Shown here piece after piece: positions 2 to 31,866 of a stretch of 44,686 nt of DNA. The stretch's first letter is position 1; each line of letters starts with the position of its first letter. The stretch comes from a virus. The notes under the pieces were generated by a model. That model was not told the DNA's origin and did no database searches. It worked only from the letters and a program-made list of their open reading frames with translations. A program made the position numbers and the translations under genes. Where the stretch lies: positions 1-44,686 of the IMG/VR virus record IMGVR_UViG_3300000117_000031; one strand, given 5' to 3'.

Positions 2-1663
2 ATGCGCCAAGGAACACCGGGGGAGAAGATCGGTAAGGGAGTTTCCCCTCGTGAGGCAACACCATCATTAGTACGTGCAGGAGCGACTGGCCGAGTTAAG
101 CCAGATCAATTCTTTAACACTCTAATCGGAGACCTCAACAAGACTGACCCATTCTCTGGGGGAGCGGCAACAACTTCTACGGTTATTCGTGTCAACAACG
201 AACTTGCACAGGTTGCCGGCCAGCACTTCGAGGAACCTATCACCATCTACACAGGGGGTAGGGGACAACGGGAAGTTGTTATCGGAGATCGCGGCGGCCA
301 CTACCAACTGGTGGAGGGAGATCCCTCTACTGAAGCCTTGCGTGGCGCACTCAAGGTTAAGATGCTCGAGGTTATCCGCAATAGCCCCGCCGCCGCGCCC
401 CTACGTAAGGCGCTCGTCAAGAGCGGAGCATTGACTCCTGCACAAGCAGAGGAAGCACGTCGGTTAGTTTTTGAAACTATCCAGAAGGGTGACCCTCTGT
501 TTGACGAGACAAAGCTCAACATGAATCTTTTGTTTAGCGTGTCAGAACTCAAGATGCTACGCCTCAATGAAGCAGGGAGCTACACACAGGTACCCCTACT
601 CGACATGGACGGAATATTTCGTGAGGTTAGCCTAGACACAATGATCGCGGCTGACGAAGAAATACGGGGGCTTGCTAGCGCATCAATCTCTGAGTACAGA
701 AACACCGTAGCAAAGATGAAGCAAGAGTTTAAACTCGACGCAAGGAATAAAGAGTACGCAAACGATACTGTAGCTAAAGCAATCCAAGATCTCGACGCTG
801 ATCCCCAAGGGTTTTTCTTTAAGCAGTTTGATCTAGGTGACCCCGGATTTACAGAAGTCGAAAACATCGAGACACTTATCCGCCAGAGAGTAACTGCAAA
901 AGTTAATCGGGATATTGAGGCTGGAGAAGTCACTCGTGAAGAAGGCTTGGCTGAGATTGAAAAAGCAGTAGACGCCTACAAAGGTTTACGTAAGGAGTAC
1001 TTCGGCACGTGGCTACGTTCTACCGCAGAGAAAAAACTCGAGGGTAGTGTCTACGGAATTGATCCGACGACAGGTAAAAAAGGAATTGTTCCGAACAGAG
1101 GATTTAGCGGATCTGATCTTCTCGATGCGATTGGAGCTGGCGGAGCACAGGATAGTGAGAAGAAGCGGGCCATTTTTGATAAGATGACCGACGGCGATGA
1201 CGAACTCTACCAGACTCTCAAGGACATTGGGGACTGGGCTGTCCTAAACCAAGCAAAGATGCCGGGGGGAATGACTGTCGACGGAGTGCCCACGGGTCTT
1301 TCCATCGAATCTTGGATCTCCCGTATCTACTCAATCAACCGTGGCGTGGTGTCTCCCCGTTACGTTGGTGCAGAGGCTCTTATCCAGAGTTTCCGTATGC
1401 AAGGGCTGAGTCTTCTTGAAGCAATGGTCAACGACAAGAAACTCGCCAAGACCGTACAGGAAATCCTTGTTTCCGGTAAGCCTCTCAAAACAGAACAAGA
1501 GAACTTCGAGTTCTTCCAAGCTCTATCGGTAGCGGCAGGTCTTTCCGCTATTCGTTTAGAACGTGCGGCCGAAGCACAAGCAAAGACCGAGGATGAGGAC
1601 GAAAAAACTGAAATCGTTATCCCCGGTAGTATCAATGAACAGATGAACTACTTAATGCCTTAG
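2..1663 (+). CDS. C-terminal part of a large internal virion protein (5' truncated)
   Basis: The frame is open from the first bases, so the ATG at 2 is probably internal and the gene begins upstream of the window. The visible 553 residues are mostly soluble and helical and end in an acidic stretch (TEDEDEKTE) followed by NEQMNYLMP. A segment near residues 440-490 (RIYSINRGVVSPRYVGAEAL) resembles C-terminal regions I associate with large structural proteins of marine podoviruses. No catalytic motif is recognised. It is followed 15 bp downstream by a small gene and then by a terminator, so it is near the end of a plus-strand structural operon. The virion role is inferred from resemblance and position. 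It could also be another large structural protein. Confidence 0.55.
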   Translation: MRQGTPGEKIGKGVSPREATPSLVRAGATGRVKPDQFFNTLIGDLNKTDPFSGGAATTSTVIRVNNELAQVAGQHFEEPITIYTGGRGQREVVIGDRGGHYQLVEGDPSTEALRGALKVKMLEVIRNSPAAAPLRKALVKSGALTPAQAEEARRLVFETIQKGDPLFDETKLNMNLLFSVSELKMLRLNEAGSYTQVPLLDMDGIFREVSLDTMIAADEEIRGLASASISEYRNTVAKMKQEFKLDARNKEYANDTVAKAIQDLDADPQGFFFKQFDLGDPGFTEVENIETLIRQRVTAKVNRDIEAGEVTREEGLAEIEKAVDAYKGLRKEYFGTWLRSTAEKKLEGSVYGIDPTTGKKGIVPNRGFSGSDLLDAIGAGGAQDSEKKRAIFDKMTDGDDELYQTLKDIGDWAVLNQAKMPGGMTVDGVPTGLSIESWISRIYSINRGVVSPRYVGAEALIQSFRMQGLSLLEAMVNDKKLAKTVQEILVSGKPLKTEQENFEFFQALSVAAGLSAIRLERAAEAQAKTEDEDEKTEIVIPGSINEQMNYLMP

Positions 1664-14867: not shown

Positions 14868-14898
14868 CCGATCAACCCCTGCCGGGGGTATACCCACT

Positions 14899-14940
14899 AT
14901 GGCATCCCCATCGGTAAGCCGTCGTTTCTTTCTTCCGTAA
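14899..14940 (+). CDS. Possible 13-residue leader peptide
   Basis: The ATG at the end of the conserved promoter-leader element opens a tiny frame, MASPSVSRRFFLP. The same ATG context (CACTATGG) starts a real 59-aa gene at 31867 behind promoter P2, with a GGGGG run 11 nt upstream in both. The peptide may be a translated leader, or only a residue of the copied element. Confidence 0.25.
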   Translation: MASPSVSRRFFLP

Positions 14941-15031
14941 ACAAAACATCCCGTACGACCAAAGTCTAATACAACACACAATAAAGGTTCTGTACTGTGG
15001 TGCTTCATTCACGAAACGGGGAGAAGTTACC

Positions 15032-15283
15032 GTGATAAAACGCATACACATTAACCAACATAACATACGACACAACGCAAAAAATCCAGACGAGTTGCGA
15101 CCGGTTGTTACCGTAAAAACAAGCTCAACCAACACTAAAGGTTTTAGCGCAACTATTAACGGAGCTTGTCGCGTAGTATACTCACCAGACAAACCGTTAT
15201 CGTGTGGTGCTAAAGTGTGGATCGAGACGAAGGATACTGTCGTCGTCGACCAAGGGGACGGATTAGTTACGGGAGTTATGTAA
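15032..15283 (+). CDS. Small conserved phage protein
   Basis: This 83-aa protein uses a GTG start with GGGGAG 8 nt upstream. It matches a pattern I recognise in many phages: IHINQHNIRHNAKNP, then PVVTVKTSSTNTKG, and at the end VVYSPDKPLSCGAKVWIETKD. It is beta-rich. Its role is not known to me. It is the first substantial gene downstream of promoter P1 and begins a run of closely spaced small genes. Confidence 0.7.
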   Translation: MIKRIHINQHNIRHNAKNPDELRPVVTVKTSSTNTKGFSATINGACRVVYSPDKPLSCGAKVWIETKDTVVVDQGDGLVTGVM

Positions 15284-18987: not shown

Positions 18988-19012
18988 GCCCCGCTTGTCG
19001 GGGCTTTTTTTT
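18988..19012 (+). terminator. Rho-independent terminator of the early plus-strand operon
   Basis: GCCCCG (18988-18993) pairs perfectly with CGGGGC (18999-19004) around the loop CTTGT, followed by eight T residues (19005-19012). It closes the run of small early genes. Confidence 0.92.
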
Positions 19013-19096: not shown

Positions 19097-19120
19097 GCGG
19101 TTTGGTTATAGAACCACCGC
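19097..19120. other. Unassigned hairpin in the intergenic region
   Basis: GCGG-TTT-GGTT-ATAG-AACC-A-CCGC folds into a two-part stem with a small internal loop. It lies about 85 bp after the early terminator, with no T-run. It could be an RNA processing site or part of an untranslated leader; nothing fixes its role. Confidence 0.35.
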
Positions 19121-19174
19121 CCGACAACGCCCAAAATGAAAACTGGTAATGGAATTCTTTAGGACTCTCTGTGT

Positions 19175-19318
19175 GTGGCCGCGATATATGCCCCCAAGGT
19201 AGATGTCCCAGTGTATCGACACGCGGTAGAAGACCAAAAAGTCGTATGGATCAAAGGAAACCCCAAAAATCGTAAGGGGGAGGGCAAGGGCCACTGGGGG
19301 TACGGGTATATGTACTAG
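19175..19318 (+). CDS. Possible 47-aa gene in the regulatory interval
   Basis: A GTG at 19175 with AGGA 9 nt upstream opens a frame with protein-like content: MAAIYAPKVDVPVYRHAVED, then QKVVWIKGNPKNRKGEGKGH and WGYGYMY. The balanced composition is unusual for a random frame in this GC-rich interval. There is no promoter evidence close by and no homolog that I know. Confidence 0.3.
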   Translation: MAAIYAPKVDVPVYRHAVEDQKVVWIKGNPKNRKGEGKGHWGYGYMY

Positions 19319-19351
19319 CAAACTCCCCACATTTTTTGTGATTTTCGGTAT

Positions 19352-19372
19352 GTGTTTCACGGAGTGTTTCAC
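19352..19372. repeat. Direct repeat GTGTTTCAC twice
   Basis: GTGTTTCAC occurs at 19352-19360 and 19364-19372, 12 bp apart, about one helical turn. It lies downstream of the predicted small RNA terminator on the minus strand. It may be a protein-binding site; no other copy was noticed. Confidence 0.35.
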
Positions 19373-19423
19373 AGTCGGGCCGTACTATGGGGTACCCCCG
19401 GAGGTATCCCCGACGTGAGCCCC

Positions 19424-19463
19424 AAAAAAAGAAGCCCCGACAGCAGGGGGTACTGTCAGGGCT
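19424..19463 (-). terminator. Minus-strand intrinsic terminator of the predicted small RNA
   Basis: An 11-position stem with one mismatch and a 9-nt loop is followed on the minus strand by TTCTTTTTTT. No minus-strand protein gene precedes it, so it most simply ends the short transcript starting near 19517. Confidence 0.8.
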
Positions 19464-19517
19464 ATGGGGCGGGGGGTAAGCTTGGGGTAGTGTATAGGTT
19501 TACCCCGGCGGGCTTAC
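19424..19517 (-). ncRNA. Predicted minus-strand small RNA of about 94 nt
   Basis: On the minus strand a sigma70-type promoter (TTGACG, 17 bp, TACAAT; 19552-19524) is followed by a non-coding stretch and a strong terminator. The terminator arms AGCCCTGACAG and CTGTCGGGGCT (forward 19463-19453 and 19443-19433) pair at 10 of 11 positions, then TTCTTTTTTT (to 19424). The transcript would run from about 19517 to 19424. Near its 5' end, AAGCCCGCCGGGG and TATACACTA repeat the leader element seen after promoters P1 and P2. No ORF of note lies inside. The target and function are unknown; it might regulate the divergent late operon. Confidence 0.6.
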
Positions 19518-19523
19518 AATCCC

Positions 19524-19552
19524 ATTGTACAGTCCAGATTTCTATCCGTCAA
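19524..19552 (-). promoter_or_regulatory. Sigma70 promoter P3 of the predicted small RNA
   Basis: Read on the minus strand, TTGACG (19552-19547), a 17-bp spacer and TACAAT (19529-19524) give five of six matches in both boxes. It is divergent from the late promoter, with 44 bp between the two -35 boxes. Confidence 0.75.
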
Positions 19553-19596
19553 TAGGTACGGAAACTATTTTTTTCTTCTGTTAAATCATAGAGTAC

Positions 19597-19626
19597 TTGA
19601 CAAAATTTATTTTTGGTACCCATAAT
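19597..19626 (+). promoter_or_regulatory. Sigma70 promoter P4 of the late (terminase-capsid) operon
   Basis: TTGACA (19597-19602) is a perfect -35 box; CATAAT (19621-19626) is a five-of-six -10 box after an 18-bp spacer. It is 118 bp upstream of the small terminase gene, with no other promoter this good before the structural operon. Host RNA polymerase probably reads it, since no phage RNA polymerase gene is seen in this window. Confidence 0.75.
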
Positions 19627-19637
19627 GGGTTTGTACC
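19615..19637. promoter_or_regulatory. Palindrome over the -10 box of the late promoter
   Basis: Outer arms GGTAC (19615-19619) and GTACC (19633-19637) enclose inner arms CCCAT (19619-19623) and ATGGG (19625-19629) centred on one A. The whole 23-bp site covers the -10 box and start region of P4. This is where a repressor would block late transcription. Confidence 0.55.
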
Positions 19638-19743
19638 GGGGCCGAAATGGCAGGGGAAATCAACTTTTATAGTCCATGTGAACCAAAGTTCCGAGACCAA
19701 GGGCCCCCACGTACACCTTTTTAGCACATATAAGTGATAAATC

Positions 19744-20148
19744 ATGAATCTCCTCCCCCAACAGAAGAAGAAACGTGAACTCTCCGACAAACAGCAGGCT
19801 TTCCTTACGGCGCTCTTCGAGAACGGAGGCCATTTCTCGAGGGCTTGCGAAGTGTCAGGTTATTCGCAAGGTTCCATCGGGTACCTTAAAGAGTCTCTTG
19901 CCGACGAAATTATCGAAGGAGCACGGAATATTCTTGCAGGCGGTGCTCTTAAAGCCGCGAATAAGCTCGTCTCGACCATTGACGCGCCGGAAATCGAGCG
20001 TGGAGATAACATACGGCTCCAAGCCGCCGAATCTCTCCTCAACCGAGTGGGTCTCGGGAAACAGGAGACTCACAATGTCAATGTCCAAGCTGTACATGGG
20101 GTGGTATTACTCCCCCCGAAGAAAGAGATGGTTATAGAAAATGGCTAA
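19744..20148 (+). CDS. terS: Terminase small subunit
   Basis: The small terminase recognises the packaging site and hands DNA to TerL. The 134-aa product follows the terminase small subunit pattern: KQQAFLTALFENGGHFSRAC, an HTH-like EVSGYSQGSIGYLKESLADE, then GGALKAANKLVSTIDAPEIE and LQAAESLLNRVGLGK. It lies directly before a short basic gene and terL, under promoter P4. The ribosome site upstream of ATG 19744 is weak (AAGTGATAAATC), so the start is a little uncertain. The family call rests on pattern and gene order. Confidence 0.85.
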   Translation: MNLLPQQKKKRELSDKQQAFLTALFENGGHFSRACEVSGYSQGSIGYLKESLADEIIEGARNILAGGALKAANKLVSTIDAPEIERGDNIRLQAAESLLNRVGLGKQETHNVNVQAVHGVVLLPPKKEMVIENG

Positions 20149-20452
20149 GAATAAACCTTACACAAATCCACCACGTGATGTCGAAGGATTCTTTAAAGAA
20201 AGGAGCCGCGTCAATAGACAGTTTAGACGTGAAGAAGATAAAGCCGCTGAAGAAGCTCGTAATAAACGATTAAGTACCACAACTATTCGTGATCGTCTCG
20301 AGAATCTCATCGGTCTGACTAAAGGTCGAGCAGATACTCGTGAAGCTAACATTGCGGCGGATAAAGCACGTAAAAAAGTGCGTAACCGAAATGAAGGGCA
20401 AAGAAAAGCCGGAGATATTAAAGCAAAATACCCTTCAAAAGGTAGTAGATGA
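20141..20452 (+). CDS. Small highly basic protein between terS and terL
   Basis: The 103-aa product is rich in Arg and Lys (RVNRQFRREEDKAAEEARNK, then KARKKVRNRNEGQRKAGD). It overlaps terS by 8 bp and terL by 4 bp (ATGA), so it is translated in a coupled chain with both terminase subunits. It may bind DNA or assist packaging. No family is recognised; the charge and location are all that can be said. Confidence 0.75.
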   Translation: MAKNKPYTNPPRDVEGFFKERSRVNRQFRREEDKAAEEARNKRLSTTTIRDRLENLIGLTKGRADTREANIAADKARKKVRNRNEGQRKAGDIKAKYPSKGSR

Positions 20453-31807: not shown

Positions 31808-31836
31808 TTGACATAAAGAATTTCATAATATAAAAT
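31808..31836 (+). promoter_or_regulatory. Sigma70 promoter P2 of the lysis-tail operon with conserved leader
   Basis: TTGACA (31808-31813) is a perfect -35 box; TAAAAT (31831-31836) is a five-of-six -10 box after a 17-bp spacer. The following leader CCGATCAAGCCC, GCCGGGGGTATATAC, ACTATGG (to 31870) repeats that of P1 almost base for base. Here the final ATG starts a 59-aa gene. Confidence 0.88.
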
Positions 31837-31866
31837 CCGATCAAGCCCGCCGGGGGTATATACACT

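Follow-up and report, generated by a model that had tools for sequence, protein, structure and literature searches.

A putative small RNA gene between the early and late regions of an HMO-2011-type marine phage genome, with candidate targets in two phage leaders

The DNA analysed here (the window) comprises bases 1–44686 of a 52,816-base IMG/VR contig from an uncultured marine phage of 52.8 kb. Within it, about 600 bp separate the terminator of the early genes from the late operon, and the question raised by this interval is whether it holds an independent small RNA gene and, if so, what such an RNA might act on. Since its TerL is about 50% identical (over 81–96%) to those of the CRP Roseobacter phages, the HTVC Pelagibacter phages and HMO-2011, the phage is, by sequence homology, of the HMO-2011 type, which has been described as both dominant and widespread among marine viruses (PMC9038755). 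The nearest TerS proteins of isolates come from pelagiphages and roseophages, all under 45%, a TerS search of the GTDB genomes yielded no relative, and megablast of the small-RNA region against named phages gave no match. The borders of the interval are as follows:

18988–19004, plus strand: terminator closing the rightward early genes
19597–19626, plus strand: late promoter TTGACA-18-CATAAT, upstream of terS and divergent from the small RNA
19744–20148: terS, followed in the late operon by an ORF at 20141 and by terL at 20449

A small ORF (19647–19724, plus strand; MAGEINFYSPCE...) is situated right after the late promoter and before terS, and many relatives keep its first ~12 codons, with MAGEDKFYRPCD appearing in others. 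No tRNA genes were found in the window; in one relative, L029, a tRNA gene is located upstream of terS (135–205, plus strand).

According to the preliminary description, this interval carries, on the minus strand and divergently to the late promoter, a gene for an independent, ORF-free small RNA of about 94 nt, whose promoter matches five of six positions in both boxes (17-bp spacer) and is followed about 54 nt downstream by a strong terminator with a T-run. The re-examination located each of these elements:

19552..19524, minus strand: sigma-70-type promoter TTGACG-17-TACAAT, 5/6 match in both boxes
19517..19424, minus strand: predicted small RNA of ~94 nt, with a start inferred from the promoter (±3 nt)
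19463..19433, minus strand: terminator hairpin AGCCCTGACAGTACCCCCTGCTGTCGGGGCT-TCTTTTTTTG
19432..19424, minus strand: terminator U-run

The terminator begins 54 nt after the predicted start at ~19517, its stem consists of 11 outer pairs, one of them G-U, and two weak inner pairs, and TCTTTTTTTG stands directly 3' of the hairpin 19463..19433 on the minus strand. No ORF starts within the small RNA, and the flanking minus-strand ORFs (19790..19581 and 19372..19106) both lie outside it. The window contains a single cassette in which a promoter with 5/6 matches in both boxes is joined, within 140 nt, by a terminator of at least 9 bp; of 300 dinucleotide shuffles, 1 contained such a cassette. By itself, the number of promoter-like matches (25) does not exceed the chance expectation (19.3 ± 3.8), and the case for the small RNA therefore rests on the pairing of promoter with terminator and on conservation. 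The predicted 94-nt RNA folds with a minimum free energy of −36.5 kcal/mol (z −5.0), matched by none of 200 shuffles, and the z-score of the opposite (plus) strand is −1.95.

Two other functions of this stretch were considered and rejected. An attenuator of the downstream minus-strand ORF 19372..19106 was discarded because stops and gaps interrupt that ORF in relatives, and a translated plus-strand ORF at 19352–19555 because of stops and frame breaks in relatives.

The search for TerS relatives gave 57 loci; 30 distinct small-RNA sequences, that of the window included, were aligned, and a covariance model (R1) built from this alignment was run on 58 sources. R1 gave full-model matches in the window and in 46 loci, scoring 53–108 bits overall and 53–105 bits in the relatives, whose E-values are at most 1.7e-9. 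These 46 loci comprise every IMG/VR relative whose TerS reaches 80% identity and whose upstream sequence is long enough, and each carries one copy of the small RNA in the same place and orientation; where R1 found no match, the contig is truncated or the TerS identity is 67% or lower. In long records, the small RNA is single-copy and found only beside terS. The DNA upstream of terS in the relatives repeats the same promoter and two hairpins: TTGAC[AG] and the 17-nt spacing are present in all of them, and the −10 box is TACAAT in most, else TATGAT, TAAACT or TACACT. Identity among the relatives is 0.6–0.9 over the promoter and the RNA, as against about 0.2–0.4 in much of the surrounding non-coding DNA, and peaks at 0.90 at the 5' element, the most conserved part. 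No ORF is conserved across the relatives at this locus. The preliminary description had proposed a covariance search of related genomes, and had staked its claim on close relatives not losing both promoter and terminator; the search found the small RNA in 46/46 close relatives, with compensatory stem changes, and both elements are kept in all 46. Taken together, the cassette, the fold and the conservation indicate that this is almost certainly a real RNA gene, structured and non-coding, with its own promoter and intrinsic terminator.

A second conserved non-coding block is found at 19284–19383 (GGCAAGGGCCAC...CTAGTRCTAGCA...ATATTTTTT...GTGTTTCACGnARTGTTTCACA). It contains direct repeats, is modular among the relatives, and is possibly an origin or packaging site. 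In one relative (G004, L110:9557, minus strand), the strand opposite the small RNA bears a promoter-like TTTACA-18-TATAAT, then GGGCCACTGGGGGTACCCC... and a T-run; this may represent a second transcript in that relative.

The RNA structure proposed for the family adds the following features:

19517..19476, minus strand: 5' hairpin, GUAAGC/GCUUAC (19517–19512 with 19481–19476) and GGGGUA/UACCCC (19506–19501 with 19489–19484)
19475..19464, minus strand: C-rich single-stranded linker joining the two hairpins (59% C across the family)
19453–19446, minus strand: terminator loop region GUACCCCC

Under this structure, 89.5% of cells are paired, compared with 82.1% in shuffled and 35–51% in slid controls, and 57 cells are changed on both sides, compared with 17 and 2–10, respectively. 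Most of the covariation support falls in the terminator stem, where 95% of cells are paired, compensatory change is seen in 7 of 13 pairs, and several positions show three or more pair types. The ~35 double changes counted on a tree from terS and downstream DNA are an upper estimate, as the allele classes of the small RNA do not follow the tree (recombination) and the counts of independent events are thereby inflated. In the outer 5' helix, compensatory changes occur at two of six pairs, all in one allele class (GUAGGUU/AACCUGC type), and the inner helix GGGGUA/UACCCC varies on one side only. With the MAFFT alignment as input, RNAalifold missed the 5' hairpin, which is thus less certain than the terminator hairpin; as a modelled structure it is considered probable. 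RNAalifold instead proposes a GGG/CCC pairing across the start (variants GGG/CCC, GGA/TCC and GAG/CTC), and because the first G's of this dyad precede the predicted start, it may be a DNA operator. The terminator loop remains C-rich while the stem changes: GUACCCCC, GUAUCCCC or GUACCCUC (GUAYCCCC) are found in 24 of the 30 sequences, and the other six have CCCC or CUCCCC cores (GGUUCCCCC or GGUCCCC types), the G-C core alone being kept.

It had also been claimed that the 5' region of the small RNA carries the leader element of promoters P1 and P2. This element is real, and CCSGCCGGGGGTA at the 5' end of the small RNA is common to both promoters:

19512..19501, minus strand: 5' element of the small RNA, CCCGCCGGGGTA, with GGG and flanking C's invariant in the 30 distinct sequences
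14876–14891, plus strand: P1 leader element CCCCTGCCGGGGGTAT, in the 5' hairpin of the long early leader; candidate target
31808..31836, plus strand: promoter P2, TTGACA-17-TAAAAT
31845–31859, plus strand: P2 leader element GCCCGCCGGGGGTAT, with GGGGG about 10 nt before the ATG; candidate target

At all three promoters, the element is located 15–17 nt after the −10 box. Each well-covered genome has it at two further promoters, of which P1 opens the early operon and P2 follows the capsid genes, and the P1/P2 form with GGGGGTA recurs in the leaders of relatives. CCSGCCGGGGGTA is absent from the late-promoter leader, and a wide pattern scan for P2 gave no match. At P1, the GGGGG forms the 3' arm of a 5' hairpin rather than a ribosome-binding site; GGGAGAAG follows ~150 nt further on. 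The common 5' element suggests that the promoters of the small RNA, P1 and P2 are co-regulated.

The untranslated P1 leader (14868–15040, plus strand) is long and conserved, with the 5' hairpin CCCCUGCCGGGG, the blocks CTTCCGTAAACAAAAC and TACGACCAAAGTCTA, and then a GTG start. A short motif, CGGTAAGCCGTCG / GGGCAAGCCGTCG, is repeated near leaders and terminators; in many relatives it occurs 3' of the small RNA, and in the window at 14905–14920.

The preliminary description had suggested that the RNA could titrate the P1 and P2 leaders or base-pair with them. Pairing would not involve its 5' element, whose sequence is that of the leaders themselves. Sequences able to pair are found in the terminator loop and the linker, both of which are C-rich and complement GGGGGUA of the element, and 8-nt complementarity of the loop to GGGGGUAU (G-U allowed) is observed in 24 of 30 loops, or in 12 of 17 distinct loops vs. 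0.6 in shuffled ones. The preliminary description had called for a complementarity prediction with the two leaders, and its outcome is divided: the loop complementarity is conserved, but the duplex energies do not single out P1 and P2, which rank about 8th of 64 start regions here and roughly 2nd to 14th in most other genomes. The energy ranking gave no single clear target, and the top duplex match, inside terS, was rejected as a target because it depends on the non-conserved linker. The target element is nearly invariant across genomes, leaving no loop–target co-variation to read.

Based on the complementarity between the loop and GGGGG and on the precedent of sX13, pairing in trans with the G-rich leaders is preferred and appears to be the best single explanation, with target evidence that is only suggestive. 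Host RNA polymerase would produce the ~94-nt RNA from its own sigma-70 promoter during infection, and the RNA would act in trans as a C-rich riboregulator, in which the loop GUAYCCCC and the C-rich linker pair with GGGGGUA near the 5' ends of phage mRNAs, those with the P1 and P2 leaders first. Such pairing would block ribosome access on P2-type leaders, would alter leader structure on P1, and might in this way help to switch between gene blocks. For the statement as a whole, a structured small RNA transcribed in infection and pairing in trans with the G-rich P1 and P2 leaders, the probability is put at roughly 0.45. A broader version is doubtful: a phage-wide RNA switch of HMO-2011-type marine phages, in which a small RNA family not described before is driven by the same leader-tagged promoter class as its targets and, through its C-rich loop, binds the 5' hairpin that early and post-capsid transcripts have in common, timing them relative to the late operon.

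A decoy role and a DNA-level regulon are serious rivals to trans pairing. As a decoy or sensor, a real small RNA would titrate a phage or host protein that binds the common 5' element in RNA, which would agree with this element being the most conserved part, being common to exactly these promoters, and forming a 5' hairpin in its P1 copy. However, the small RNA has its GGGGUA half base-paired within the 5' hairpin, whereas a short CCCC-GGGG hairpin forms in P1 and P2; the conserved C-rich loop would be left without a role, and no candidate protein is known. A decoy is considered unlikely. The likelihood of a DNA operator just past the start is similarly low. Here the promoters of the small RNA, P1 and P2 would form one regulon, and the RNA would target other G-rich host or phage mRNAs. 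The uniform distance of the element from the three −10 boxes, its partly palindromic sequence (GGGTATACCC; GGGGGTATACCCCC in L045), and the co-varying dyad GGG-N8-CCC across the start of the small RNA are consistent with an operator, but P1 and P2 are without this dyad, no regulator was identified, and the conserved loop would remain unexplained.

A cis role in replication or packaging, either by transcription near an origin or pac site or through a packaging RNA like that of phi29, is improbable. The position beside terS and terL is fixed, and the second conserved block, which combines GTGTTTCAC direct repeats with an AT-rich stretch, is found 40–140 bp past the terminator; however, the terminator ends the transcript before that block, no Rfam match relates the RNA detectably to known packaging RNAs, and relatives of this terminase are not known to require an RNA. 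Finally, a mere terminator of stray leftward late-region transcription beneath a chance promoter can be set aside as very improbable, for although a leftward-facing terminator would protect the region and promoter-like matches are frequent by chance, the promoter boxes and their spacing are kept in all relatives, the 5' element and 5' hairpin are conserved, and the loop is conserved past the needs of a terminator.

A similar divergent promoter is also seen at greater distance. The TerS relatives L054–L058 have a promoter, a similar 5' element and a terminator but no R1 match, and L060 and L061 have the promoter and a similar element without a clear terminator. R1 did not find the small RNA in HMO-2011 or CRP-603, and its matches in CRP-235 (E-value, 0.02) and HTVC115P (E-value, 0.33) are not convincing. 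At the syntenic divergent site, the pelagiphage HTVC115P, which is in culture with its host HTCC7211, has a consensus promoter TTGACA-16-TATAAT, a start ACCTGCCGGGAGC, and a terminator 86 nt past the −10 box; the putative transcript would lie at ~54310–54404 of MN698247, divergent from terS. In HTVC104P and HTVC033P, the divergent promoter is present together with a leader containing CC(A)GGGGG, and no terminator is clear. Because R1 does not reach the HTVC phages (E-value, 0.33), homology of the HTVC115P cassette to the small RNA is only a suggestion, from position and motif. Its presence in a phage that can be grown makes this cassette, for all its divergence, the best starting point for experiments.

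No Rfam family was matched in the window at the gathering threshold, and permissive matches (sX13, sar, int-alpA) are at chance level. The literature search found no paper on HMO-2011 and small RNA and no description of how HMO-2011-type phages time their genes; intergenic or non-coding elements go unmentioned in the main genome paper on the group. A phage-encoded small RNA with its own promoter and terminator is of a kind known already; the family itself appears new, judged against the libraries searched. Placed where early genes give way to late ones, a conserved small RNA gene offers a concrete candidate regulator that can be tested: its cassette is small enough for a plasmid test in a culturable alphaproteobacterium, and the covariance model permits it to be tracked in metatranscriptomes.

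Among known phage RNAs, the pRNA of phi29, a 174-nt scaffold RNA of a different motor, is also encoded near packaging genes, and no resemblance to it was found. Lambda OOP and P22 sar are short self-contained phage RNA genes with a promoter and an intrinsic terminator that act by antisense, and the RNA described here has the same layout, its terminator matching sar weakly (E-value, 0.84). OOP and sar are cis-encoded opposite their targets with long complementarity, whereas the pairing proposed here would be short and in trans; no conserved gene lies opposite 19424–19517, where the plus strand runs between the 18988–19004 terminator and the late promoter at 19597. Antisense pairing by a short phage RNA gene is documented for OOP (PMC5869508). 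C-rich apical loops are shared with S. aureus RNAIII-type RNAs (UCCC loops), H. pylori HPnc5490 and the alpha-r7 family (PMC3771888), C-rich RNAs directed at G-rich ribosome-binding regions, which are cellular genes with no sequence relationship to the phage RNA by Rfam search. The closest analogy to the proposed mode of action is sX13 of Xanthomonas (RF02232), the product of its own gene of about 115 nt, with stable stems and apical CCCC/CCCCC loops, which represses mRNAs with GGGG near the start codon independently of Hfq (PMC3771888). The small RNA scores 21.2 and 22.1 bits against RF02232, below the cut-off of 50 (E-value, 0.12 at 21 bits). Both RNAs have their own gene and a C-rich apical loop, but sX13 has three stem-loops and is located beside polA, whereas the phage RNA has two hairpins, with one C-rich apical loop and a C-rich linker, and is phage-borne, beside terS.
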